This document shows positions 4,301 through 37,206 of a stretch of 42,717 bases of DNA, piece by piece (position 1 is the stretch's first letter; each line of letters begins with the position of its first letter). The notes beneath the pieces were generated by a model, which ran no database searches, was not told the DNA's origin, and saw only the letters and a program-made list of their open reading frames with translations. The DNA comes from a virus: IMG/VR virus record IMGVR_UViG_3300046009_014136, positions 1-42,717 of that record; one strand, given 5' to 3'. A program made the translations under genes and the position numbers.

Positions 4301-4675
4301 GTGTATCAATATAGATGGGTAATTGAAAAAATTGAAGGATATCCTAATCATAATGGATTAGAGAATGTTTTAGGTCTTGTAGGTTGGGAATTAGAAATTC
4401 GAGACACTGCTGACCATTCTATTCATTATATTAGACAATCCACTAAATTAAATGTTTCTAATGTAAATCAAGACAATTTTATAGATTATCTAGAATTAGA
4501 TGATCAACAGGTTTTATCTTGGGTTTGGGAAATTATTGGAAAAGAGGCAACAGAATTACAGGCCAAAAAAGAACTAGATGATTTAAGAACTCCTTCACCA
4601 GATCAATTAACATCATTAGGTATGCCTTGGAAAGGTTCTTGTTGTCCTGATGGTACAGGAATGCAACCAGAATAA
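4301..4675 (+). CDS. Small fibre-associated hypothetical protein (DUF7936-like)
   Basis: A GTG start at 4301 sits behind GGAGA at 4291-4295; the overlapping ATG at 4299 runs into a stop after seven codons. The protein has 124 aa. Its C-terminal half (LDDQQVLSWVWEI, then KKELDDL, then GMPWKGS) aligns with the 120-aa protein at 11927 (LSSEQVLEWIWTN, KQLDQL, LPLPWTQ), so the two are homologs placed on either side of the giant fibre gene. The pattern resembles the DUF7936 phage family as I remember it; that assignment needs a profile search. A possible role is fibre attachment or assembly. Confidence 0.65.
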   Translation: MYQYRWVIEKIEGYPNHNGLENVLGLVGWELEIRDTADHSIHYIRQSTKLNVSNVNQDNFIDYLELDDQQVLSWVWEIIGKEATELQAKKELDDLRTPSPDQLTSLGMPWKGSCCPDGTGMQPE

Positions 4676-4685
4676 GGAAAATTTA

Positions 4686-7600
4686 GTGTCAGTAAATTTA
4701 AGTTCACTGTTAGGTAGCAATTTTAGAGGAGATAGCGGATACTCTGGTATCAGTGGATATTCGAGTCAATCGGGATATAGCGGAATATCTGGGTATTCGG
4801 GTAGTGTAGGTCCTCAGGGTAGTTCTGGTTATTCGGGACAAATTGGCTCTAGTGGATATTCGGGATATTCTAGTTTTTCAGGTACCAGTGGTTATTCTGG
4901 TGATAGCGGTTATAGTGGTGAATCGGGTATATCAGGTTATAGTGGAGAATCGGGTTACTCAGGTTATAGCGGTGAATCAGGTTATAGCGGTGAATCAGGC
5001 TATTCGGGTATAAGTGGTTATAGCGGTGAATCAGGTTACTCAGGTATATCAGGCTATAGTGGTGAATCAGGTTACTCAGGTATATCAGGCTATAGTGGTG
5101 AATCAGGTTACTCAGGTATATCAGGCTATAGTGGTTATTCAGGTTACTCAGGTATATCAGGCTATAGCGGTGAATCGGGTTATAGCGGTGAATCAGGTTA
5201 CTCAGGTATAAGTGGTTATTCAGGTTACTCAGGTATATCAGGCTATAGTGGTGAATCAGGTTATAGCGGTTATAGTGGTGAATCAGGCTATTCAGGTATA
5301 AGTGGTTATAGTGGTGAATCAGGCTATAGTGGTATATCAGGCTATAGTGGTATATCTGGTTATTCGGGTATAAGTGGTTATTCAGGTATATCAGGCTATA
5401 GTAGTGAATCAGGTTATTCAGGTATAAGTGGTTATTCTGGTAATAGCGGTTATAGTGGCATATCGGGTTATTCAGGTATAAGTGGTTTTAGTGGCTATTC
5501 AGGTATATCAGGTTATTCAGGTATAAGTGGTTTTAGCGGTTACTCGGGTATAAGTGGTTTTAGTGGATTTTTACAGAATCCCTACCCTAATGTTGTTGTA
5601 CTGACTAATAATACTCAGGCAAGTTCCACTGTGTCGGGTGCATTACAAGTAAGTGGTGGTGTTGGCATAGGAGGCAATTTATATGTAGGCGGTGAAATTG
5701 TTGCTCAAAAACTAACCATTGAATTGACCACTGTGACCACAACACAGGTAATTACTGACGATGTAATCAAAACTGACAACACAACCGATTCTTCAAGTAC
5801 AACTACAGGAGCATTAATTGTAGCAGGAGGTGTTGGAATAGGTAAACAGCTACGTGTTGGATCAAGTTCAACATTTGGCGGTAGTCTAATTCCTAATGCT
5901 GATGGAGTACACGATCTAGGAAGTCCTACTAATAGATGGGCTACATTATATGTTTCTTCAGGCACAATTGATATAGGTGGAACTACACTATCATCTACCG
6001 ATGGAGTTTTCGAAACATCCCTAATAAGAGTAACCGGAGCTACATCTAGTACTTCTACTTCAACAGGAGCTTTGAGAATAGTCGGGGGATTAGGTGTAGG
6101 ACAATCTGCCAATATCGGAGGCAATGCCACAGTATTGGGTAATGTCGGTATTGGTACAACAAGTCCTTCGACTCTTTTTAATATTCGTTCTTCATCTCCG
6201 ACTATTGCAATTGATGATTCAGGCAACGGAACTTCAACCATTTCGTTCCGCCCATCTGCTGCTTCATATGCCGAGCGTGCAGGACTGTCAGTTAATTATT
6301 CAACTGCAGAACTTCGCCTGTCCGTTGGGGTGAGCGGTAATACTTATGTCCAAACATTTTATACAAATGGTAATGAACGTGCTCGTATTTCTGCAGCTGG
6401 GTATCTAGGGGTGAATAATACAAATCCAAGTAATCCTTTAACAGTCTCGAGCACAGGAAATAGTGTAGCACCTATAGGACTTGTAGATACGCAGGCTAGT
6501 GGAAGAACTTGGTATATTAATAATGGATATCCGAACGTAGGCAATTTTAGTTTGTATGATGGAACTGCTGCTGCTGTCAGATTTGTTATCAATACTTCTG
6601 GAAATGTAGGTATTGGAAAAACTGATCCTAGTTTTAAATTAGATGTTGATACCAGTATGCGAATATCAGCAGTCGATGGTAGCGGAGGTCTACAAATAGG
6701 AACTGCAACTCCTTCTGTTTATCATTATATTAATTTTGGTGGAGCAGTTGGAGGAACTGATGATGCCTGGCAAATAGGTCGTAGTCCCACCGGTGGAGTT
6801 GGGCCAACCAATGGATTTTATATCTATGATATTAAATCTTCAGCAACAAGATTTGTGATCAATACTTCTGGAAATGTAGGTATTGGAACTACATCACCTA
6901 TTAATAACAGCGGCTACGGTGGCCTGTCACTAAATGGCACCAGTGGTGCTCTGTTCAGCATGATGACCAACGGAACAGAGTCTAGTCGTATTGCTAGCCT
7001 TGGAGATGAAACTTCGATTCAAAGTAAAGCCACTACTGGTTATATTAGTTTCGTTCAGGGAGTAAGTGGCGGTACTGAACGTATGCGTTTAGATGCCAAT
7101 GGCAATCTTGGTATAGGAACTTCAAGTCCAGGAGTATTGCTTGATATTCAATCTAGTTCAGGTGCAGTTATACGTGCAAAAGCAACAGGTGATGCGACAC
7201 AAGCAGCACTTATCCTTGATGGATATGCTACAACAGGAACTTATAGAGCTTCTAGATTAGATTTTAGACAAAATAATGTGGCAAAATGGAGTTTAATTTT
7301 AGACTATAATCAAAATGATACAAATAGTTTAACATTTGAACAAAGTGGATCTATTAAAGCAGTTTTAGATGCTTCGGCTAATTTTTCGTTGGACGGTGGT
7401 GGAACTTTTGTGGTTAATAATGCAAAAGCATACGCAACTAAAGATTCCGGTGGAACCTCACGTTGGGCTATGTACATGTCCGGAGGTGTGTCGCCTTCTT
7501 CTGGTGACATTCTATTTGTAGGTAATCCATTAAACAACGCTTTGGGATTCTTTACAAATAATACAGAACGTATGCGTATCGCCGGTGGCGGTGCTGTTGG

Positions 7601-10600
7601 CATTGGCACCACTGGTCCATTGTATGAAACCGATATAGCAGGCAGTACTGGATATGATCCTACATCCGACAATGCAACTGTACTAAGAGTTAGAAGTACA
7701 ACTAGTAGATATCCTACTTTTCCTGGCGAAACATCGGCTATAGCAATTACAAAATCCGGAGAACCTTACGGTTGGAGATTACTCAGTCAATATGTTGCGG
7801 ATACCTATGCTGGAGCCAATTTTCATATTCAGAATAGTTTAGACATTACACCAACCTGGGGTACAAAATTCTTTATTTCAAGTGCAGGTAATGTTGGCAT
7901 TGGAGTCACTGACCCAGTGATAAAATTACAAGTACACGGACCAATGAATGTCCCTGCTTCTAACTTTAAATCTGTTGCATCATTTAACTCAACCGATTCT
8001 CAAGCAGCAAACACTGGTGCTGGAATAACGCTGGGCGGAGTTTACACAGGTGGCACAGTCACAACATTTGCTCAAATAGCAGGTGTAAAAGAAAATTCAA
8101 CCGATAATAATTTTGCAGGAGTTTTAGCCTTATACACAAGACCCAATGGCGATACACTACAAGAACGTATGCGTATTACTTCTGTGGGCAATGTTGGTAT
8201 TGGTACAACTTCACCATCAGATCGTCTTCAAATAGATGGTAGTGCTTCATCTTCTGTTGCATTTATAGGATTAAACACAACAAGTGCCAGTAACGCAATG
8301 CGAATTATGTTTCGCGAAAGCGGTACATCAAAAGGTCAAGTGACATGGTCTGTTGATAATTCCGCTCTTGAATTTTTAAATCAAGACGAGGGCGGATACA
8401 CTGTATTTTATACAACTCCGACAGGTGGTTCTCTTACCGAACGTATGCGTATCACAGATGCAGGTAATGTTGGTGTTGGTACTGCATCACCCTTTGGTAC
8501 AACCTCTAATCGAACTTGTTTCAGTGTTAATGGAACAAACGACGTTTCATTAAATGTAGGTAGTGATGGAGTTCAAAGAGCATATCTTTATGGATCTGCA
8601 TCTGTTGGACAAGTTGGTACTATAGGTGCGCTTCCATTGGTATTTGCTCCTAATGATACTGAACGTATGCGTATCACTAGTGATGGAGATATAGGTATAG
8701 CAGCGACTTCACCAGAAGGTAAATTAGATGTTGTTTCTTCCGGTGTAAATGGTACCCAGCAATCAGATTGGAGCAGTGCTGGCATTTCATATAATAGTTA
8801 TGGTGATGTAACTATTACCAGAAGACACGGTGCAACTAAAGATAGCACATATGGATATACTGGTCCCATAATTGATTTTAGAACAACTAATCAACTGAAT
8901 GAATGGTCAGCGGCTCAAATTATGGCCACTGTAGATCCTCAAAGTGGAAACAATCATCAAGGTGGTTTGCTATTCCTAACAAGTTCTGGAGGTACTACAG
9001 ATCCCACAGGTCGAAGAAATATGGGAGCTGCTCCTCAAGTTAGGATGATGATTGGTCACAGTGGCGATATCTATATGCCTGGAAAATTAGGCGTAGGTGT
9101 TAGCTCTCCAGCAACAGAATTAGAAGTAGCGAAAACATTAGGTTCCGATGGATGGGTAAGAACAGTTACCAGAGATGCAAATAAAGCTTCATTTATAGGT
9201 GTGTATAGATCAGGTAGTACATACAGTGCTGGAGTTTTTGCCCATAATGCAGGACTTAGCGCATGGGATGATTTATGGATAAATGCGCATAATGATGGTA
9301 GTGGTGGAGTAAGTGGAGGAACTAGTAATAAAGTTATTATAGCAGGTAATGTTGGCATTGGAACTGCATCGCCTTCGGAAAGATTGCATGTTTCTGGCGG
9401 CACAATAAGAATTGATGGCACTACAGACGGCATAAGAATATTTAAAGACGGAAGTAATTCGATTATTAGTCAATTGTATCTTGCAAATGCTGTAAACAAT
9501 AGAGCATACAATTGGCAATTAAATGCTGATGGATCTGGTTTAGATTTGTGGACGTATGGTGGTTCAAGTTGGGAAAGAAAATATACGTTTTTAGCAACTG
9601 GTAATGTTGGTATAGGAACCGCTTCTCCAAATTCCAAACTTACAGTTAACGGAGTAACGAATGTAGGTCTAGGTGGAAAACTTTCTCTAATTGGTTTGGA
9701 TATTAATAGCGGAGATACACCGACATACATTAAAATTACAACTACCATTCCATTTGCATCTGGTTCAGCTGATTTTACTGTTAACATTAAAGGATTTGTA
9801 TATGGAGATGCAGCAGCTTGTGATCTAAACATCTGTTGGCATTATTATAATAGCACTTTCTATAACGCCACTGCTACTTCTAGTGGATCTTGGGCACCCA
9901 CAATAAGATTGTCTGCTGAAAATGGATTCGTTGCGATCGTGCTATCTTCTCCTGCCTATTGGCCTAAAATATATGTGGAAAGCATGTACAGTAGTGCATA
10001 TTCTGATCAATATTCCAGTGGTTGGTCATGGAGTGATGCTGATGCGAATGGATCTCCAATTGTAACAGTGGGTTATAAGTCTAATTTTGGTAATGGAATT
10101 GTTGGTAACTCTAATGGTTTAGGTATTGGTGTAAATCCTTCAGAAAAATTACATGTCAATGGTAATATTAAAGTTGCAACTGGAGGTGTGCTTTATGTAG
10201 AAAATCCAGCAGGAGGTAGATTAGGTTATTTAACAACTAATGCTACTGGAACATTACTATCAGCCCATAATGATGCTGGCGAACCTCTTTTATTAAGCGC
10301 CCCGGCAGCCTCGGCATATATGAGTTTCTCTACTGCAGGATCAGAACGTGCTCGTATCACCGGCAGTGGGGATGTTGGGATTGGGACAACTAATCCGGGA
10401 TCAAAATTAGAGGTTCGATTTTCTAGCAACTCGTATGTATTAACAACAAATAGCGGAGACAATAACACCGGCATTCGCTTTTCGAATACTGGTAGAGATT
10501 ATGGCATCTTCGTTGATGGTGGCTCTGGTTCAAGCAACCCACTTCGTTTCTATGACTTTACGGCCGCCGCCGAACGCGCCCGTATCACCAGCGGTGGGGA

Positions 10601-11708
10601 TTTTGTAGTAGGCCCAGTTGGCGGCAACGGCAGTGGCGTAGTCAAGGCTTCGGACGCTGCTGGTACTAACCAGCCCGGCTCCAACCTGCTGCTGAAAGGT
10701 GGCGATGGTGGCGGCACGGGCAACAGTTATGTCGCAATCTTCACAGCCCCCGGAGGATCGTCTGGTTCTTCGCCGAGTGCGTCAGTGGAGCGCGTGCGCG
10801 TCACGCCTGCTGGCAACTTCCTATTTGGCACTACGTCCGACATCGCCGGGAACGGCGCTTATGGGGTCTTCGGCAATAGCAGTTCCGCCGGAGCCAACAA
10901 ATGGGCCGCGTATTTCGGCACCAATTCTTCGAGTTCGGGGGCCGCGCCAAATTTTGGCTTGACCATCGGCTGGAACAAGTCTGGTGGTGGAGGCGAGACA
11001 AATATCGTTTATGGAACAGGCGTCGGGTCTACCCCGGCACTTGCTTTTGGGTCTTCGGATGGGACTACATACACCGAACGCGCCCGTATCACCAGCGGTG
11101 GGTACTTTAAGGCGAGTAATAGCGGGGCGTATCTAAACAGCACTGCTACCTATCATGAAATCAATCAAACGGCTAACGACAATATTCTGTTTATACGGTC
11201 TACCGATGCAAATTACTCTGTTGATGGTGTTCAATTAAGATTTAGTAGAAACACAACTAATAACACCTTTTATGCATTAAGTTACTACAATGATGCGGCA
11301 GCCGCATACAAGTTCCGTGTAGCCGACTCTGGTGATGTCACCAACACCAACGGCACTTACGGCACCATCTCCGATCAGAAGATGAAAACTGACATTGTGG
11401 ACGCAGGTTCACAGTGGTCAGACATCAAGTCGCTGCGCTTCCGCAAGTTCAAAATGAAGGATGATCCTTCTGGTCTTGTCCAGTTGGGCGTGGTGGCTCA
11501 GGAAGTTGAGCTTACCTCTCCGGGTCTGGTGGATGAACATCAAGACCGCGACGCTGAAGGCAACGACCTTGGCACGACCACCAAGTCAGTCAAGACCTCT
11601 GTGCTGCTGATGAAAGCAGCCAAAGCTCTGCAAGAAGCTATAACTAGAATAGAATCTCTTGAAGAAAAAGTTAACCTATTAGAAGAAAAGCTGAAGAAAT
11701 ATGAATGA
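4686..11708 (+). CDS. Giant collagen-like tail fibre with S74 chaperone
   Basis: The preferred start is GTG 4686, behind AAGGAAA at 4674-4680, giving 2340 aa. An ATG at 4650 is in frame but lies inside the previous gene without a ribosome site. After a short head, about 280 residues are Gly-X-Ser collagen-type triplets (GYSGISGYSGES...). A long shaft follows with many GNVGIGTTSP and ERMRIT/ERARIT modules. The end is an S74 chaperone with a SDQKMK Ser-Lys dyad, GVVAQEVE and a terminal coiled coil (ESLEEKVNLLEEKLKK). From about 10560 to 11640 base composition shifts to GC-rich, unlike the rest of the gene, suggesting the distal tip was acquired by recombination. It is probably the main long fibre; the receptor is unknown. 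Confidence 0.85.
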   Translation: MSVNLSSLLGSNFRGDSGYSGISGYSSQSGYSGISGYSGSVGPQGSSGYSGQIGSSGYSGYSSFSGTSGYSGDSGYSGESGISGYSGESGYSGYSGESGYSGESGYSGISGYSGESGYSGISGYSGESGYSGISGYSGESGYSGISGYSGYSGYSGISGYSGESGYSGESGYSGISGYSGYSGISGYSGESGYSGYSGESGYSGISGYSGESGYSGISGYSGISGYSGISGYSGISGYSSESGYSGISGYSGNSGYSGISGYSGISGFSGYSGISGYSGISGFSGYSGISGFSGFLQNPYPNVVVLTNNTQASSTVSGALQVSGGVGIGGNLYVGGEIVAQKLTIELTTVTTTQVITDDVIKTDNTTDSSSTTTGALIVAGGVGIGKQLRVGSSSTFGGSLIPNADGVHDLGSPTNRWATLYVSSGTIDIGGTTLSSTDGVFETSLIRVTGATSSTSTSTGALRIVGGLGVGQSANIGGNATVLGNVGIGTTSPSTLFNIRSSSPTIAIDDSGNGTSTISFRPSAASYAERAGLSVNYSTAELRLSVGVSGNTYVQTFYTNGNERARISAAGYLGVNNTNPSNPLTVSSTGNSVAPIGLVDTQASGRTWYINNGYPNVGNFSLYDGTAAAVRFVINTSGNVGIGKTDPSFKLDVDTSMRISAVDGSGGLQIGTATPSVYHYINFGGAVGGTDDAWQIGRSPTGGVGPTNGFYIYDIKSSATRFVINTSGNVGIGTTSPINNSGYGGLSLNGTSGALFSMMTNGTESSRIASLGDETSIQSKATTGYISFVQGVSGGTERMRLDANGNLGIGTSSPGVLLDIQSSSGAVIRAKATGDATQAALILDGYATTGTYRASRLDFRQNNVAKWSLILDYNQNDTNSLTFEQSGSIKAVLDASANFSLDGGGTFVVNNAKAYATKDSGGTSRWAMYMSGGVSPSSGDILFVGNPLNNALGFFTNNTERMRIAGGGAVGIGTTGPLYETDIAGSTGYDPTSDNATVLRVRSTTSRYPTFPGETSAIAITKSGEPYGWRLLSQYVADTYAGANFHIQNSLDITPTWGTKFFISSAGNVGIGVTDPVIKLQVHGPMNVPASNFKSVASFNSTDSQAANTGAGITLGGVYTGGTVTTFAQIAGVKENSTDNNFAGVLALYTRPNGDTLQERMRITSVGNVGIGTTSPSDRLQIDGSASSSVAFIGLNTTSASNAMRIMFRESGTSKGQVTWSVDNSALEFLNQDEGGYTVFYTTPTGGSLTERMRITDAGNVGVGTASPFGTTSNRTCFSVNGTNDVSLNVGSDGVQRAYLYGSASVGQVGTIGALPLVFAPNDTERMRITSDGDIGIAATSPEGKLDVVSSGVNGTQQSDWSSAGISYNSYGDVTITRRHGATKDSTYGYTGPIIDFRTTNQLNEWSAAQIMATVDPQSGNNHQGGLLFLTSSGGTTDPTGRRNMGAAPQVRMMIGHSGDIYMPGKLGVGVSSPATELEVAKTLGSDGWVRTVTRDANKASFIGVYRSGSTYSAGVFAHNAGLSAWDDLWINAHNDGSGGVSGGTSNKVIIAGNVGIGTASPSERLHVSGGTIRIDGTTDGIRIFKDGSNSIISQLYLANAVNNRAYNWQLNADGSGLDLWTYGGSSWERKYTFLATGNVGIGTASPNSKLTVNGVTNVGLGGKLSLIGLDINSGDTPTYIKITTTIPFASGSADFTVNIKGFVYGDAAACDLNICWHYYNSTFYNATATSSGSWAPTIRLSAENGFVAIVLSSPAYWPKIYVESMYSSAYSDQYSSGWSWSDADANGSPIVTVGYKSNFGNGIVGNSNGLGIGVNPSEKLHVNGNIKVATGGVLYVENPAGGRLGYLTTNATGTLLSAHNDAGEPLLLSAPAASAYMSFSTAGSERARITGSGDVGIGTTNPGSKLEVRFSSNSYVLTTNSGDNNTGIRFSNTGRDYGIFVDGGSGSSNPLRFYDFTAAAERARITSGGDFVVGPVGGNGSGVVKASDAAGTNQPGSNLLLKGGDGGGTGNSYVAIFTAPGGSSGSSPSASVERVRVTPAGNFLFGTTSDIAGNGAYGVFGNSSSAGANKWAAYFGTNSSSSGAAPNFGLTIGWNKSGGGGETNIVYGTGVGSTPALAFGSSDGTTYTERARITSGGYFKASNSGAYLNSTATYHEINQTANDNILFIRSTDANYSVDGVQLRFSRNTTNNTFYALSYYNDAAAAYKFRVADSGDVTNTNGTYGTISDQKMKTDIVDAGSQWSDIKSLRFRKFKMKDDPSGLVQLGVVAQEVELTSPGLVDEHQDRDAEGNDLGTTTKSVKTSVLLMKAAKALQEAITRIESLEEKVNLLEEKLKKYE
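4733..5571 (+). repeat. Collagen-like coding repeat array
   Basis: Imperfect tandem repeats built from 9-18 nt blocks (ggttatagtggt, gaatcaggttac, tcaggtatatca), often forming units of about 36 nt, encode Gly-X-Ser triplets. The frame is intact throughout. Such an array should be prone to length change by slippage or recombination, which would alter fibre length. It is protein-coding and is not a CRISPR. Confidence 0.85.
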
Positions 11709-23026: not shown

Positions 23027-25360
23027 ATGATTACAGTAGTCAAACGTAGTGGATCTCGTGTTCCCCTAGATATTTCAAAAATTCAAAGACAGGTTTATCT
23101 TGCATGTAAGAATATAGATGCGGTAAGTCCGTCTATGATTGAAATCAAAGCACAGTTAGAATTTCATGATGGTATGACTACTGAAACTATTGACGAACTA
23201 CTTTTAAAAGCTATGGTTGATCTTATCGACGAAACTGAAAATCCTGAAATCAATAATGTAAATTATCAATATGTAGCAGGCAGACAAATGGTTTCGATGC
23301 TACGGAAAAAAGCATATGGTCAATATGAACCGCCTAAACTTTATGAGATTGTTAAACGTAATATTGATCTAGGATTATATACACCAGAACTACTAAATTG
23401 GTATAGCGAAGACGAATGGAATATTATTGATCTTTTTATCGATCATGACAAAGACACACAGTATACCTATGCAGCAATTGCACAGCTAGCAGAAAAATAT
23501 TTGGTACAAAACAGAGCCACTGGTAAATTGTATGAAAGTCCACAGATTCGATACGCAGTGGCAGCGGCTACCGCTTTTCATGCCGAACCTAAGGAGGCAA
23601 GATTAAAATATGTTAAAGAATATTATGAATGTGCGTCGGATGGGCATTTTACTCTCGCTACTCCTGTTCTTGCTGGGCTTGGCACTACTACTAAGCAGTT
23701 CAGTAGTTGCGTTCTTATCAGCAGTGACGATACATTGGACAGTATATTTGCAGCTGGCGAAATGATGGCCAAATATGCTTCAAAACGAGCCGGAATTGGT
23801 CTGGAAATAGGCAGAATTCGACCCTTAGGTGCCCCAATTCGTAATGGAGAAATCAAGCATACGGGTATGATACCATTTTTGAAGAAATGGTTTGCAGATT
23901 TAAGATCATGTTCGCAAGGTGGTATACGTAATGCTAGCTGTACCGTAACTTTTCCTGTTTGGCATTATCAATTTGAAGATCTTATTGTACTAAAAAATAA
24001 TCAGGGAACTGAAGAAAATCGTGTGAGGCAAATGGACTATAGTGTAGTTGTCAATAAAATGTTTTGGAATCGCTATAAGAATAATCAGTCTATTACTCTA
24101 TTTGATCCGCACGAGGTCCAGGATCTGTATGAAGCTTACTATCGTGACAGCGACGAATTCGAACAACTTTATCTAAAATATGAACGTGATCCTAAAATTA
24201 AGAAGAAAGTTTTACCAGCAGAGGAAATTTTTAAAAATGGTATTTTAAAGGAAAGAACCGATACTGGACGTATCTATTTGGTTAATATAGATAACGTGAT
24301 TAATCAGGGACCATTTATAACTAAAACCGATCCTATCTATCAATCAAATCTCTGTCAAGAAATTCTATTACCAACTAAACCATTTCAAAGAATAGAAGAC
24401 CCAAATGGTAGAATAGCTCTTTGTACTCTAGGCAGCATTAATTGGGGATCATTTCGAACTCCACAAGAAATGAGAAAAGCTTGTCGTATCTTAGTTCGTA
24501 GTTTAAGTAATCTTTTACAATATCAAGATTTTTTAAGTATACAGAGCCAATTGGCAAATAAGGACTTTGAACCATTAGGAGTAGGCGTGACTAACCTTGC
24601 ATACTGGCATGCAAGAAGAGGTTTGAAATATGGAACAGCTGAATCACTGGCGGAAGTCAAAAGATGGATTGAACATCAGGCCTACTTTCTTACAGAAACC
24701 AGTGTAGAACTTGCTCAAGAACGCGGTGCCTGTGAGCGTAGTCAATATACATGGTATGGCCAGGGAGTGTTTCCTTGGGAACGTAGAGCAAAAGGTGTAA
24801 ATGAACTTACAGATTTTACTCCATCACTTGATTGGGAAAGTCTTAGAACACGATTGAAAACCTATGGTATAAGAAATGCTACTTTGATGGCAGTTGCACC
24901 AGTGGAAAGTTCTAGTGTAGTATTGAACAGTACCAACGGTATCGAAATGCCTATGGAACTGATCAGTGTGAAGGAATCTAAGGCAGGCAGTTTTGTACAA
25001 GTAGTCCCAGAATATAAACGATTGAAAAATCGATATCAACTTATGTGGGATCAAACTGATTGTGTAGATTACCTGAAAACAGCCGCAGTACTAGCAGCAT
25101 ATATCGATCAAAGTTTGAGCACTAATACATTTTATAATCCAGCACACTATTCGAACAACAAGGTACCCGGTACTATTGTAGCTAAGAATCTTATGTTAGC
25201 TTATAAATGGGGTATAAAAACCATTTATTATAGCCTAATTAACAAAGTTGGTGCGAAAGTAAATATTACAGGAACAAATTCTACCGCAAATATAAATGCA
25301 GCAGACAATGTAGTTATCTATGAAGAATTAGAAGAAAATTGCGATTCTTGTGTACTTTAA
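23027..25360 (+). CDS. nrdA: Class Ia ribonucleoside-diphosphate reductase, large subunit
   Basis: This 777-aa protein has the length and order of NrdA: an N-terminal ATP-cone (MITVVKRSGSRVPLDISKIQ, allosteric site), catalytic Cys residues at 228 (FSSCVLIS), 443 (SNLCQEI, with the partner Glu445) and 466 (IALCTLGS), the radical-transfer Tyr pair at 734-735 (KTIYYSLI), and a C-terminal CDSC pair that hands electrons to the active site. It reduces ribonucleoside diphosphates to deoxy forms for phage DNA synthesis, with NrdB. It is followed by iscU, nrdB and a glutaredoxin gene. No intein or intron is present in this gene. Confidence 0.97.
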   Translation: MITVVKRSGSRVPLDISKIQRQVYLACKNIDAVSPSMIEIKAQLEFHDGMTTETIDELLLKAMVDLIDETENPEINNVNYQYVAGRQMVSMLRKKAYGQYEPPKLYEIVKRNIDLGLYTPELLNWYSEDEWNIIDLFIDHDKDTQYTYAAIAQLAEKYLVQNRATGKLYESPQIRYAVAAATAFHAEPKEARLKYVKEYYECASDGHFTLATPVLAGLGTTTKQFSSCVLISSDDTLDSIFAAGEMMAKYASKRAGIGLEIGRIRPLGAPIRNGEIKHTGMIPFLKKWFADLRSCSQGGIRNASCTVTFPVWHYQFEDLIVLKNNQGTEENRVRQMDYSVVVNKMFWNRYKNNQSITLFDPHEVQDLYEAYYRDSDEFEQLYLKYERDPKIKKKVLPAEEIFKNGILKERTDTGRIYLVNIDNVINQGPFITKTDPIYQSNLCQEILLPTKPFQRIEDPNGRIALCTLGSINWGSFRTPQEMRKACRILVRSLSNLLQYQDFLSIQSQLANKDFEPLGVGVTNLAYWHARRGLKYGTAESLAEVKRWIEHQAYFLTETSVELAQERGACERSQYTWYGQGVFPWERRAKGVNELTDFTPSLDWESLRTRLKTYGIRNATLMAVAPVESSSVVLNSTNGIEMPMELISVKESKAGSFVQVVPEYKRLKNRYQLMWDQTDCVDYLKTAAVLAAYIDQSLSTNTFYNPAHYSNNKVPGTIVAKNLMLAYKWGIKTIYYSLINKVGAKVNITGTNSTANINAADNVVIYEELEENCDSCVL

Positions 25361-25370
25361 GGAGAATAAA

Positions 25371-26795
25371 ATGGCATACAGTGAACGTGTTCTCGACCAT
25401 TACGAAAATCCCAGAAATGTTGGCAGATTAGACAAATCTGATCCCTCAGTAGGAACCGGAATCGTAGGAGCTCCGTCCTGCGGAGATGTACTCAAACTTC
25501 AAATCAAGGTAGACGAAAATGATGTCATCACGGACGCGAAATTTAAGACGTATGGCTGTTTAACAAGTAATGCATTAATAAACACACCTACACATAGTAA
25601 GAAAATTTCAGAATTTAAAGTAGGCGATTTGGTATTAGCATGGGACGGACAAAAAATCGTTAATCAACCAATTGCTGATATTATTGTTCGCGCTGTACCA
25701 GTTAGTGAATTACTAAGAATTACATTTCAAAGAGAAACTTCAAGAAAGAATATCCGATCCGGACTTTTTTCACTAATTTGCACAAAAGAACATATCTTTT
25801 GGAATGCTGATAATACACCGGTTGAAGCACAAATGCTTCGACCAGGACAAGCATTGTATGAAATAACAGAACATGAATTAAGAACATTGACCAATAACAG
25901 GCATCGAGAAGAAATTAAGAAAAAAAATAGTCAACGTATGACTAAGTGGAATCAGACATTTGATCATTCATCTTTACCACAAAATCAACTCGGGTATGTA
26001 TGTAAAGATCCAATAGGCAAAAAAAATAAAATTTCTAGAGAATCTAAAAGAAATTGGAATTCTCCCGAATATATCCAAAAATGGCAAGAGGGGATGAAAA
26101 ATCGAGACTTTACTAAGCCTACTAGTATTGAACAGAAATTTATCTCATTGTTTGAAGAACACAATGTCGCAGCACGATGGTCTGCAGGAAAAATTTGGAT
26201 TCAATCTTCAACCGGTCCGGTGAGTCCCGATTTTATTGTGCCCGGTAAGAAAAAATGTATCGAAGTATACACTAAAAAAATGCCATCATTCATGCAAGAT
26301 AGGTCAGATACATCTCAATATATCGAACAAAGATCAAAACAATTATTGTCTGCTGGTTATGAATCGTTATTTTTAGCGATTGAAGATATAGACAATTCTT
26401 TAGAAAAAGTTCAAAATTTTATCCATAATGGGATGAAAGTTATTGCTATTGAAGAAATATCATCTTTGAATCAAAATTCTTTAAGAGGCTGTGAAAGAAA
26501 TGGCAAAGACGTTCTAGTGTATGATCTAAAATTACAGGAAGGAGCACATGTATATTTTTCGCAGAGAGTTGGTTCGCACAACTGCGGTTCGGCGATCGCA
26601 AGTTCATCACTCGTTACGGAGTGGATCAAGGGTAAGACGTTGGACGAGGCGGGAACTATTAAGAATACTGAAATCGCCGAACATCTTGCACTCCCCCCAG
26701 TTAAAATACATTGCTCGATTCTTGCTGAGGACGCGATCAAAGCTGCTATAGCTGATTATAAAAAAAGAAAAACAACAGAGAGAAACCATGAGTAA
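25371..26795 (+). CDS. iscU: IscU iron-sulfur scaffold protein interrupted by an intein
   Basis: The ATG at 25371 follows AAGGAG. N-extein (62 aa) starts MAYSERVLDHYENPRNVG and ends FKTYG; C-extein (70 aa) starts CGSAIASS and includes PPVKIHCSILAEDA. Joined, they give a 132-aa IscU with every known ligand in E. coli numbering: Cys37, Asp39, Cys63, His105 and Cys106. A 342-aa intein sits exactly before Cys63. IscU assembles [2Fe-2S] clusters with IscS and passes them to target proteins. The sampled extein lines are about 53% GC against 35% in the intein, suggesting a host-derived gene. The 3' end overlaps nrdB by 8 nt. The link to reductase supply is inferred. Confidence 0.95.
   Translation: MAYSERVLDHYENPRNVGRLDKSDPSVGTGIVGAPSCGDVLKLQIKVDENDVITDAKFKTYGCLTSNALINTPTHSKKISEFKVGDLVLAWDGQKIVNQPIADIIVRAVPVSELLRITFQRETSRKNIRSGLFSLICTKEHIFWNADNTPVEAQMLRPGQALYEITEHELRTLTNNRHREEIKKKNSQRMTKWNQTFDHSSLPQNQLGYVCKDPIGKKNKISRESKRNWNSPEYIQKWQEGMKNRDFTKPTSIEQKFISLFEEHNVAARWSAGKIWIQSSTGPVSPDFIVPGKKKCIEVYTKKMPSFMQDRSDTSQYIEQRSKQLLSAGYESLFLAIEDIDNSLEKVQNFIHNGMKVIAIEEISSLNQNSLRGCERNGKDVLVYDLKLQEGAHVYFSQRVGSHNCGSAIASSSLVTEWIKGKTLDEAGTIKNTEIAEHLALPPVKIHCSILAEDAIKAAIADYKKRKTTERNHE
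25557..26582 (+). mobile_element. Intein with embedded PD-(D/E)xK/Vsr-like nuclease domain
   Basis: The 342-residue intein starts with Cys1 (CLTSNALINTPTHSKKISEF, block A) and has a block B-like TKEH at residues 76-79. The C-terminal splicing blocks are VLVYDLKLQEGAHVYF (319-334) and terminal VGSHN (His341-Asn342), followed by the +1 Cys of IscU. All residues needed for standard splicing are present. The middle is not LAGLIDADG: residues 115-185 have repeated basic S..W motifs like NUMOD3, and residues 188-280 (SPDFIVPG, CIEVYTKK, YIEQRSKQLLSAGYESLFLAI) look like a Vsr-type or EDxHD homing nuclease. It is probably an active mobile intein. Confidence 0.9.
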
Positions 26796-30901: not shown

Positions 30902-31081
30902 ATGAGTTGGGTTTGGGTGGTTTCATTTTCTGTCCTAAATGCAACTTCAGAACATGGAACATTTGGTAATTTTAGCACCAAGGCCGAATGTGAAATTGCA
31001 TTGAGAGAAAAACGAGTTCAAATGTTACAGCAAAACAAATCAATTGTTGGAACATGTTTTGTAACTCAAAAAAAATCATAG
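30902..31081 (+). CDS. Small hypothetical protein with two Cys (59 aa)
   Basis: The ATG at 30902 comes 10 nt after the previous stop; the ribosome site is weak. The sequence MSWVWVVSFSVLNATSEHG continues FGNFSTKAECEIALREKR and ends VGTCFVTQKKS. The layout (a strand with Trp, then F.(s)..EC..AL helix, then a Cys strand) is shared by many small phage and bacterial proteins of unknown function. No clear signal peptide. It ends right at the -35 box of the tmRNA promoter. Confidence 0.6.
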   Translation: MSWVWVVSFSVLNATSEHGTFGNFSTKAECEIALREKRVQMLQQNKSIVGTCFVTQKKS

Positions 31082-31107
31082 ACAGATTTCTTAATTAAAT
31101 ATATACT
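31079..31107 (+). promoter_or_regulatory. Sigma70-type promoter of the tmRNA
   Basis: TAGACA at 31079-31084, a 17-nt spacer and TATACT at 31102-31107. Transcription should begin near 31114, just before the tmRNA acceptor piece. Confidence 0.6.
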
Positions 31108-31125
31108 GTAGTTTATTGTTGTATG

Positions 31126-31422
31126 AAGGAAGTCGAAAGACGAGCAAGACGCCGGGGCAGTGCCGGCCGGGTCCACCAAAAGCATACTGAGTCCGTAAAT
31201 ATCTTTCAGTAGACTCAAGGAACGGTTTTAGAAGATAGTGCAATCTATTACCAGTATGCTTTTGATGGGCCCGAAACAGTATCGATTGGCGTGTAATAGA
31301 TAACTGGACAACACGGTAGGCGACGACCGTAAATCGAGCAAAAAAATAAATGCCAATGATGAGGTATTTGCTTTAGCCGCTTAAGGCTAAGCCGGGGTTG
31401 GTTACCTTGTTACCCAATAACC
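31126..31422 (+). ncRNA. ssrA: Circularly permuted (two-piece) transfer-messenger RNA
   Basis: The acceptor piece comes first: T-arm GCCGG-GGCAGTG-CCGGC (31151-31167), acceptor strand CGGGTCC (31168-31174), A175, CCA at 31176-31178. A spacer closed by a perfect 12-bp repeat (31178-31189 with 31252-31263) follows. The coding piece starts GGGCCCG (31267-31273), making a 7-bp acceptor stem with G3-U70, the alanine identity pair. The tag frame GCC AAT GAT GAG ... GCC GCT TAA (31352-31384) encodes ANDEVFALAA inside a hairpin. Permuted tmRNAs are known in alpha- and some betaproteobacteria and in cyanobacteria; this tag is most like the beta type. The RNA rescues stalled ribosomes. The T-loop is not canonical. 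Outer ends are approximate. Confidence 0.93.
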
Positions 31423-31446
31423 AAGGCACCTTCGGGTGCCTTTTCT
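31423..31446 (+). terminator. Rho-independent terminator of the tmRNA
   Basis: AAGGCACC-TTCG-GGTGCCTT followed by TTCT; an 8-bp stem with a stable TTCG tetraloop. Confidence 0.9.
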
Positions 31447-35371: not shown

Positions 35372-35770
35372 ATGGACGGAAAGATTACATTAATAACCCC
35401 ACCTGACATTTTTGAAAATTCTAATCTCAGTATTTTATTTTTTCACATTAGCGAAGAAGAACAAGATTTTATAAGTAAATGGTTATCTAATTCTGATTTA
35501 AAAATCAATCTAAATTTTTATGTATATACAGATGAAACCAACTTACCTTGGATTTTTTATGCATTTGGGCAATCTGAATATAAGTATATTAACTTTGATA
35601 ATAGTAATACTATAACCCAAGCATTAGGAAGTTATCTATTATCAAAAAATAATGTGTACTACAAAACTAAAGATGAAAATTTAGCTGCTATTTTCAGTCA
35701 TATTAACAGCAATAAAATTCATAAAATAGAATCATTTTTAGAGAGAGTTTTAATTGACCAAAGAAACTAA
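35372..35770 (+). CDS. Hypothetical protein (132 aa)
   Basis: The ATG is 1 nt after the previous stop. It is an acidic, Asn- and Phe/Tyr-rich soluble protein (LSILFFHISEEEQDFISKWL, INLNFYVYTDETNLPWIFY, SYLLSKNNVYYKTKDENL). I recognise no domain. Its end overlaps the start of clpX by 17 nt, so it is co-translated with clpX and bS21 and could be part of that functional group. Confidence 0.6.
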   Translation: MDGKITLITPPDIFENSNLSILFFHISEEEQDFISKWLSNSDLKINLNFYVYTDETNLPWIFYAFGQSEYKYINFDNSNTITQALGSYLLSKNNVYYKTKDENLAAIFSHINSNKIHKIESFLERVLIDQRN

Positions 35771-36983
35771 TCATCATTGTGATTTTTGCGGAAAAAGTAA
35801 AGAAAATGTAGAAAAATTGATCGTAGGAGAACACGCCGCAATTTGTAATGATTGTGTAGATTTATGTACATCAATTTTAGATGATGAAAAAGATAAAACT
35901 GTAGTAACTGATAAAAAAGTTCTAAATCCTAGTTTGATAAAAGACTACTTAGATGAATATATCATAGGACAAGATGAAGCTAAAATAGCTATCAGTGTTG
36001 CAGTTAGCCAACATTTTAAACGTATTAATAATCCCAGCAAAGAAATAAAATTAGAAAAAACTAATGTGTTGCTTTTAGGCCCAACTGGCTGTGGTAAAAC
36101 TATGATTGCAAGAAAAATTGCAGATTATCTCGATTTGCCATTTGCTATTTGTGATGCTACAGGATTAACTGAAGCAGGATATGTAGGTGATGATGTTGAG
36201 AGTATACTTAATCGCCTTATAAACGAAGCAGATGGTGATTTAGAAAAGGCAAGTCAAGGTGTAGTTTATATAGATGAAATTGATAAGATTGCAAGGAAAA
36301 GTGAAAATACCAGTATCACCAGAGATGTCAGCGGTGAAGGTGTACAGCAAGCTCTTTTGAAAATGATAGAAGGTAGTATCATGCGTATCCCTAGTACAGG
36401 TAAAAGAAAACATCCGGGATCCGATATGCAAGAAATAGATACATCTGGAATTTTGTTTATTTGCGGAGGGGCTTTTGTGGGTATCGAAAAGCTTATTCAG
36501 AATAGACTAGAAAGTAGAAGTATAGGATTTAGTGCTAACGTTGAAATCACAAAAGAATCTACTGCCAATCTTAATCAAATTACACCTAAAGATCTCATAC
36601 AATTTGGATTTATTCCTGAATTTGTAGGTAGATTTGGACTTATAACCAATGTAGAAGAATTAAATGAAGAACAACTAGTGCAAGTACTTTTGGACACAAA
36701 AAATAGTGTAATCAAACAATATCAATATATTTTTGAGTTAGATGGATTAAAATTAGATTTTGAAATAGAAGCTCTAAAAGAAATAGCCAGAAAAGCCAAA
36801 GAACTTAAAACCAATGCTCGAGGATTAAAAAACATAATTGAAAAAACTCTTTTACCATATCAATTTGATGCAATAAATCTTGTTGAAAGGGGATTGGTTA
36901 AAATTTTAATAAGTAAGAATACAGTTGCAGGAGAACCTGCGATTTTAATTTTCGATAAAAAAGTGAACCATGAAAAAAAATAA
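35754..36983 (+). CDS. clpX: ClpX, ATP-dependent unfoldase of the ClpXP protease
   Basis: A TTG start, with a purine-rich GAGAGAG upstream, gives 409 aa, close to full length (E. coli 424). Domains in order: four-Cys zinc-binding domain (Cys9, 12, 31, 34), Walker A GPTGCGKT (109-116), pore loop GYVG (142-145), Walker B VYIDE (171-175), RKH loop (218-220), ClpP-docking IGF (257-259), arginine finger Arg293 and sensor-2 Arg356 (NARGL instead of GARGL). All parts needed to recognise ssrA-tagged proteins and to dock on ClpP are kept. No clpP is in the window, so it should work with host ClpP. It is coupled to bS21 downstream. Confidence 0.96.
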   Translation: MTKETNHHCDFCGKSKENVEKLIVGEHAAICNDCVDLCTSILDDEKDKTVVTDKKVLNPSLIKDYLDEYIIGQDEAKIAISVAVSQHFKRINNPSKEIKLEKTNVLLLGPTGCGKTMIARKIADYLDLPFAICDATGLTEAGYVGDDVESILNRLINEADGDLEKASQGVVYIDEIDKIARKSENTSITRDVSGEGVQQALLKMIEGSIMRIPSTGKRKHPGSDMQEIDTSGILFICGGAFVGIEKLIQNRLESRSIGFSANVEITKESTANLNQITPKDLIQFGFIPEFVGRFGLITNVEELNEEQLVQVLLDTKNSVIKQYQYIFELDGLKLDFEIEALKEIARKAKELKTNARGLKNIIEKTLLPYQFDAINLVERGLVKILISKNTVAGEPAILIFDKKVNHEKK

Positions 36984-37206
36984 TTATCTAAATGGATGTA
37001 AAGTTGTACTAACAGACAATATGCCTCTAAATTTGGCACTTAAAAAGTTTAAACAAAAAGTTGACGACAGTGGAATTTTAGAAACACTCAAAACAAAAAT
37101 GTTTTATGAAAAACCAACTATTGCCCGTAAACGTAAAGCAGGTGCTGCCCGTGCACGTTGGATGAAAAAACTTAGAGATCAAGCTTTGCCAAAAAAAATG
37201 TACTAG
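36970..37206 (+). CDS. rpsU: Ribosomal protein bS21 homolog
   Basis: This 78-aa protein overlaps clpX by 14 nt. It matches bS21 in pattern: VVLTDNMPLNLALKKFKQKV, then GILETLKTKMFYEKPT, then a basic helix (ARKRKAGAARARWMKKL) and an aromatic end (KKMY, like RLY in E. coli). By family knowledge bS21 sits by the anti-Shine-Dalgarno end of 16S rRNA in the small subunit and affects initiation; phage versions are known from pelagiphages and large phages. It may bias host ribosomes toward phage mRNAs (inference). Confidence 0.93.
   Translation: MKKNNYLNGCKVVLTDNMPLNLALKKFKQKVDDSGILETLKTKMFYEKPTIARKRKAGAARARWMKKLRDQALPKKMY

Follow-up and report, generated by a model that had tools for sequence, protein, structure and literature searches.

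A permuted, apparently mosaic tmRNA gene encoded alongside ClpX and bS21 in a group of related phages

The tmRNA locus

The stretch of DNA analysed here, referred to as the window, is a linear virus contig of 42,717 bases (IMG/VR record IMGVR_UViG_3300046009_014136), which encodes tail fibre and baseplate proteins and, like T4-like phages, the subunits of a class I ribonucleotide reductase. The isolated phage closest to it in nrdA and nrdB, at about 62%, is Xanthomonas phage X1. A permuted tmRNA gene, from promoter through terminator, occupies positions 31079-31446 of the plus strand, on which all window features described below are located, and its acceptor 3' half (31151-31178) lies upstream of the 5' half and the tag frame (31267-31384). 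The original prediction of a phage-encoded, two-piece tmRNA had been made from the sequence without database searches, and it is supported by an Infernal search with Rfam models in which the permuted covariance models do match. By cmscan, RF04321 (tmRNA_permuted) aligns to 31117-31384 over model positions 1-213 of 213 (134.9 bits, E 1.9e-26, gathering score 47) and beta_tmRNA RF01850 aligns at full length to 31065-31446 (131.4 bits, E 5.7e-40, gathering score 84), while alpha_tmRNA RF01849 reaches 94.1 bits, which is over its cut-off and below the score of the beta model. The pseudoknot regions also align to the beta_tmRNA model, covariance models as such containing no pseudoknot pairing. When the gene was compared with isolated phages by blastn, only short matches of 25-36 bases were obtained.

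Transcription is predicted to start from a sigma-70-type promoter, TAGACA-17-TATACT (31079-31107), which recurs in relatives, given that 12 of 29 distinct phage genes carry a 17-nt-spaced site that scores 10/12 or better and whose -10 element ends 39-50 nt upstream of the T-arm. The acceptor piece extends to the encoded CCA (31117-31178, from the RF04321 and RF01850 alignments) and includes the T-arm GCCGG-GGCAGTG-CCGGC (31151-31167), with an alphaproteobacterial-type T-loop at 31156-31162, followed at 31168-31178 by the acceptor 3' strand CGGGTCC (31168-31174), A73 (31175) and CCA (31176-31178). The acceptor 5' strand GGGCCCG is found at 31267-31273, an RNase P site being expected just before it, and the two strands form the anticipated stem of 7 bp, including the G3-U70 pair, ahead of A73 and CCA. 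The D-loop region AAACAGTATCGATTGG (31274-31289) is alpha-like, with A18-G19 at 31278-31279. The tag frame GCC AAT GAT GAG GTA TTT GCT TTA GCC GCT TAA (31352-31384, stop codon TAA included) encodes ANDEVFALAA, and is followed by a 3' part of beta type (GGCTAAGCCGGGGTTGGTTACCTTGTTACCCAATAACC; 31385-31422, RF01850 alignment) and by a terminator consisting of the hairpin AAGGCACC-TTCG-GGTGCCTT (31423-31442) and a T-rich tail that ends at 31446. Tag, promoter and TTCG-loop terminator are thus all as originally proposed.

Between the two pieces lies an intervening segment of 88 nt (31179-31266), which would presumably be cut out during maturation and whose closing hairpin (31178-31189 with 31252-31263) extends the acceptor stem. 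The perfect 12-bp inverted repeat described for this segment is present, except that it includes the last A of CCA and therefore contributes 11 bp inside the spacer itself. Among relatives the spacer sequence varies from gene to gene, while its ends still pair with each other: a gene's own ends form a mean of 9.8 contiguous bp as compared to 5.3 for exchanged partners (permutation p 0.0002). Such covariation argues for the importance of the closing hairpin, presumably in processing.

The gene was not reported by ARAGORN when run on the window, so that covariance models were the sole finders among the tools used. When 17 loci were submitted to ARAGORN, none of the five phage genes with a GGCAGTR T-loop was detected, whereas all eight with TTC or TGC loops and all four bacterial genes were. 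Since every phage gene tested with the alpha-type T-loop was missed, ARAGORN-based censuses of phage tmRNAs, such as that of PMC9004378, probably undercount this form.

Conservation in related phages

The comparison set comprised 50 virus contigs that had been chosen solely by a related nrdA. A permuted tmRNA is present in 38 of these, and it follows nrdA-nrdB in 23 of the 24 contigs that offer at least 12 kb past nrdA, where it is located 4-13 kb downstream of nrdA and always on the same strand. In Xanthomonas phage X1 neither an annotated tmRNA nor ClpX was found within 18 kb of nrdA. It has been discussed (PMC9004378) that ssrA is a common integration site and that prophage fragments are known, and the gene could accordingly be a captured host ssrA that persists as a functionless relic of integration or imprecise excision. 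This explanation appears very improbable, because the place after nrdAB is kept in nearly all informative relatives, promoter and spacer hairpin are conserved, the gene is intact over its full length, and no integrase was found among the scanned genes of the window.

Two further genes of the window deserve description. A protein of 2352 residues (4650-11708) contains collagen-like repeats and an endosialidase-type chaperone domain (Peptidase_S74), and is probably a very long tail fibre. Between nrdA and nrdB, an IscU-like protein (25350-26795) matches IscU/NifU_N at residues 8-75 and 375-474, the two stretches being separated by some 300 residues that weakly match a Hint module, which probably represents an intein inside a phage iscU gene; this protein was matched in six fetched loci, with 100% identity in one contig.

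Coupled variation of the T-loop and D-loop

The T-loop GGCAGTG had been singled out as departing from the canonical form. Its sequence is real and is indeed non-canonical for a tRNA, but it is the normal form in alphaproteobacterial tmRNA, and attention is therefore due to its pairing with a beta-type body rather than to the loop as such. The consensus T-loop of RF01849 is GGCgGUA, scanning bacterial genomes for the pattern yielded tmRNAs with GGCAGTR that were for the most part alphaproteobacterial, and an older comparative study had described the replacement of the second U by G in the Caulobacter T-loop (PMC1168896). Degeneration or a sequencing error was considered as the origin of this loop and ruled out, as it is an alphaproteobacterial form that is recurrent in relatives.

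The D-loop changes along with the T-loop, carrying AG or GG two or three bases before TCGA. Among 251 distinct tmRNAs, numbered by the tRNA convention, G55 is accompanied by A18-G19 in 228 of 228 genes and U55 by GG in all 21 that could be scored, two further U55 genes being left unscored by the script. The G55 genes stem mostly from the scan in which the T-loop, though not the D-loop, had been selected, and both types also occur in the nrdA-anchored set. This concerted change suggests a direct contact between positions 18 and 55 in the tmRNA core, in which A18-G55, of alphaproteobacterial type, would take the place of the usual G18-U55. A literature search for a natural A18-G55 in tRNA gave no usable report. 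It is conceivable that the T-loop change could reduce tmRNA function.

Alpha-type and beta-type features

When its features are compared with those of the two Rfam families, the window tmRNA is, as far as its sequence can tell, a mosaic in which the T- and D-loops are of alpha type and the body, the tag and the 3' part are closer to the beta type. It shares gene order, tag type, 3' part and spacer hairpin with beta_tmRNA (RF01850, some Betaproteobacteria). The canonical T-loop TTCRANT and GG D-loop of that family (consensus GUUCGAUUC) are replaced by GGCAGTG and AG, and the gene is for this reason regarded as a mosaic and not as a plain beta_tmRNA member. Chromosomal beta-type genes, by contrast with the window, carry the T-loops TTCGATT (L405), TTCGACT (L427) and TTCAATT (L428) together with a GG D-loop. 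Conversely, the window has the T-loop GGC[A/G]GTR and the D-loop AG-NN-TCGA in common with alpha_tmRNA (RF01849, Alphaproteobacteria), from which it differs in its tag and 3' part, these being ANDEVF and CCTTGTTACCCAA instead of an ANDN tag and ACCUGGCAACAGAA, and thus resembling the beta type. Few plain beta tmRNAs turned up when relatives at class, phylum and order level were sampled in large numbers. A similar mosaic occurs on a bacterial chromosome, and the arrangement is therefore not unique to phages: L353 (genome G078; G078:C1:605750-606054) combines a GGCGGTA T-loop and an AG D-loop with a beta-model score of 121.1 bits, and differs from the window gene in its 4-nt spacer, in its tag ANDDNFEVALAA and in being found by ARAGORN. 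Among 369 class relatives of a Xanthomonas genome, L353 was the only such alpha-loop gene passing the beta cut-off.

Comparison of phage relatives suggests how this combination may have come about. Bodies that are 91-99% identical were found despite differing T- and D-loops; for example, L017 (TTCGAAT) and L051 (GGCAGTG) are 99% identical across 75 nt downstream of the D-loop, and L016 and L028, with different loop types, are 92% identical downstream of the D-loop and 97% upstream of the T-arm. It is therefore probable, on such alignments, that the beta-type body acquired its alpha-type core by exchange between permuted genes, an event that would be eased by the permuted order, which places T-arm and D-loop no more than about 140 nt apart. 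No other body compared exceeds 72% identity to that of the window, and consequently a donor of its own core was not found. On the other hand, a series of compensatory mutations may have produced the loop difference step by step (TTCRA to TGCRA to GGCAG, accompanied by G18 changing to A18), considering that the same phage family contains intermediate T-loops of the TGCGA (e.g. TGCGAAT) and TGCAA types with A18 in an AG D-loop, and that some pairs, such as L040 and L051, share stems yet differ in both loops. We consider this route somewhat unlikely, as T-loop, D-loop, T-stem and acceptor stem all differ at once between L017 and L051, which is what an exchange predicts, while the existence of intermediates means that exchange and stepwise change both may have acted. 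A four-gamete argument for recombination was also considered; all four combinations of T-loop type and 3'-end type were seen, yet this was not used as proof because the 3'-end types are few bases apart, with intermediates.

ClpX, bS21, ClpP and SmpB

Several kb past the tmRNA, the window encodes a full-length ClpX (35754-36983), identified by PDB alignment and by matches to NF003745 (523 bits, cut-off 359) and TIGR00382 (496.6 bits), and thus at the level of a ClpX equivalog model; alignment and sequence inspection revealed the zinc finger, Walker A and B motifs, GYVG and RKH pore loops and IGF loop. Its end is overlapped by the frame of ribosomal protein bS21 (36970-37206; TIGR00030 50.8 bits, PF01165 51.4 bits). 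ClpX is uncommon in isolated phages, with 51 of 50,697 records matching over most of its length, while it is encoded in 18 of the 50 related contigs, including 12 of the 13 tmRNA-bearing ones that extend at least 20 kb downstream. In all 18 ClpX-bearing contigs bS21 adjoins clpX or lies no more than 1 kb away. The distance between tmRNA and clpX is about 3 to 18 kb in relatives, and the two genes do not share an operon. ClpP was found in two of the largest related IMG/VR contigs, G021 (141 kb) and G034 (230 kb), which hence bring together tag writer (a permuted tmRNA), unfoldase (ClpX) and protease. SmpB was found neither in the window nor in the 50 related contigs.

The presence of tmRNA, ClpX and bS21 on one stretch has a bacterial look, which might imply that the contig is bacterial or misbinned and that the gene is simply bacterial, a possibility that is hardly credible: the record is viral and carries phage-type ribonucleotide reductase genes together with genes for tail fibre and baseplate, and its arrangement is repeated in many virus contigs with ClpX proteins 62-82% identical to that of the window.

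Proposed function

Taken together, these features argue for a functional, phage-owned two-piece tmRNA that would use host SmpB, with core exchange and disposal through phage ClpX, a reading to which we assign a probability of roughly three in four. Following transcription, host tRNA-processing enzymes would remove the spacer and leave two pieces joined by base pairing, host alanyl-tRNA synthetase would charge the molecule through G3-U70 and A73, and host SmpB and EF-Tu would deliver it to ribosomes stalled on mRNAs broken during infection. The nascent chain would be freed with the tag A-ANDEVFALAA (AANDEVFALAA including the carried alanine), which is similar to the E. coli tag AANDENYALAA. The C-terminal LAA would then be read by ClpX, and the phage protein, by docking to host ClpP via its IGF loop, may sustain disposal past host shut-off. 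As tmRNA and ClpX are both phage-encoded, the phage may run its own line of ribosome rescue and protein disposal, the coupling of the two being suggested by their co-occurrence. Alternatively, phage ClpX may have its role in replication or in the assembly of virions and not in tag disposal, by analogy with the roles proposed for ClpX in lambda and in a Sinorhizobium jumbo phage (PMC11242549). Some relatives carry tags without the usual ALAA end, namely ANDSQFALAANA in L026, ANDDTFLLASNA in L067, ANDSQFRMVA in L079, ANDDTFLLAANA in L101, ANDSQYSMAA in L040 and ANDELYSMAA in L077, and these tags may either be adapted to the ClpX that the phages themselves encode or be poor degradation tags.

It could also be argued that the phage RNA is a decoy or competitor which, by tying up SmpB or stalled ribosomes, would prevent trans-translation by the host. 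The tag-less, tRNA-like RNA of mycobacteriophage DS6A has been suggested to act in this way; there is thus a phage RNA with little beyond the tRNA-like domain, and tmRNA is inhibited by a similar molecule (PMC4131195, PMC11915505); the unusual T-loop would fit a decoy, as would the need for the host SmpB pool. A decoy nevertheless requires no tag, whereas tag frame and stop codon are intact here and the tag is readable in nearly all relatives, and ClpX, the reader of such tags, is co-encoded, which makes this role rather unlikely.

Relation to known phage tmRNAs and significance

The original prediction had regarded phage tmRNAs as rare and mostly of standard order. This view is not upheld for two-piece forms, which account for 53 of 133 distinct phage tmRNAs, 50 of those 53 coming from aquatic samples (PMC9004378); the tmRNA database contains 79 unique bacteriophage tmRNAs (PMC11915505). 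A phage two-piece tmRNA per se is thus already published, as exemplified in PMC9004378 by phage Melnitz and other aquatic phages. Like the window, Melnitz, a T4-like phage, carries nrdA and nrdB and has a permuted tmRNA just after an early promoter. Unlike that of the window, the Melnitz tmRNA is reported to group phylogenetically with alphaproteobacterial ones and to be associated with a glutamine riboswitch, and the available text of that article gave no indication of a mosaic or of ClpX or bS21 coupling for Melnitz-type tmRNAs. A precedent for co-encoding of tmRNA and ClpX is provided by the Sinorhizobium jumbo phage AP-J-162 (PMC11242549), which differs in its size (471 kb) and in the location of clpX beside IF-3 and topoisomerase genes, linked by its authors to replication. 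For a mosaic with a concerted T/D-loop switch, a fixed position in the family and a ClpX and bS21 neighbourhood, no description was found in open-licence papers.

More tentatively, and at less than even odds, it may be proposed that a T4-like phage family possesses its own translation quality-control line (mosaic tmRNA to rescue ribosomes, ClpX with or without ClpP for the disposal of tagged chains, and bS21 acting on the ribosome) together with a swappable core, whose two codes, G18-U55 and A18-G55, would be exchanged between alpha and beta types since permutation brings T-arm and D-loop close in the DNA. If the functional reading is correct, complete trans-translation RNAs would be a stable trait that phages retain and recombine, and the natural swap of T- and D-loops in near-identical bodies would allow two tertiary solutions for the tRNA-like domain to be compared. 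Pairing an RNA that writes a degradation tag with the unfoldase that reads it would, in addition, make the gain that a phage draws from its tmRNA directly testable.
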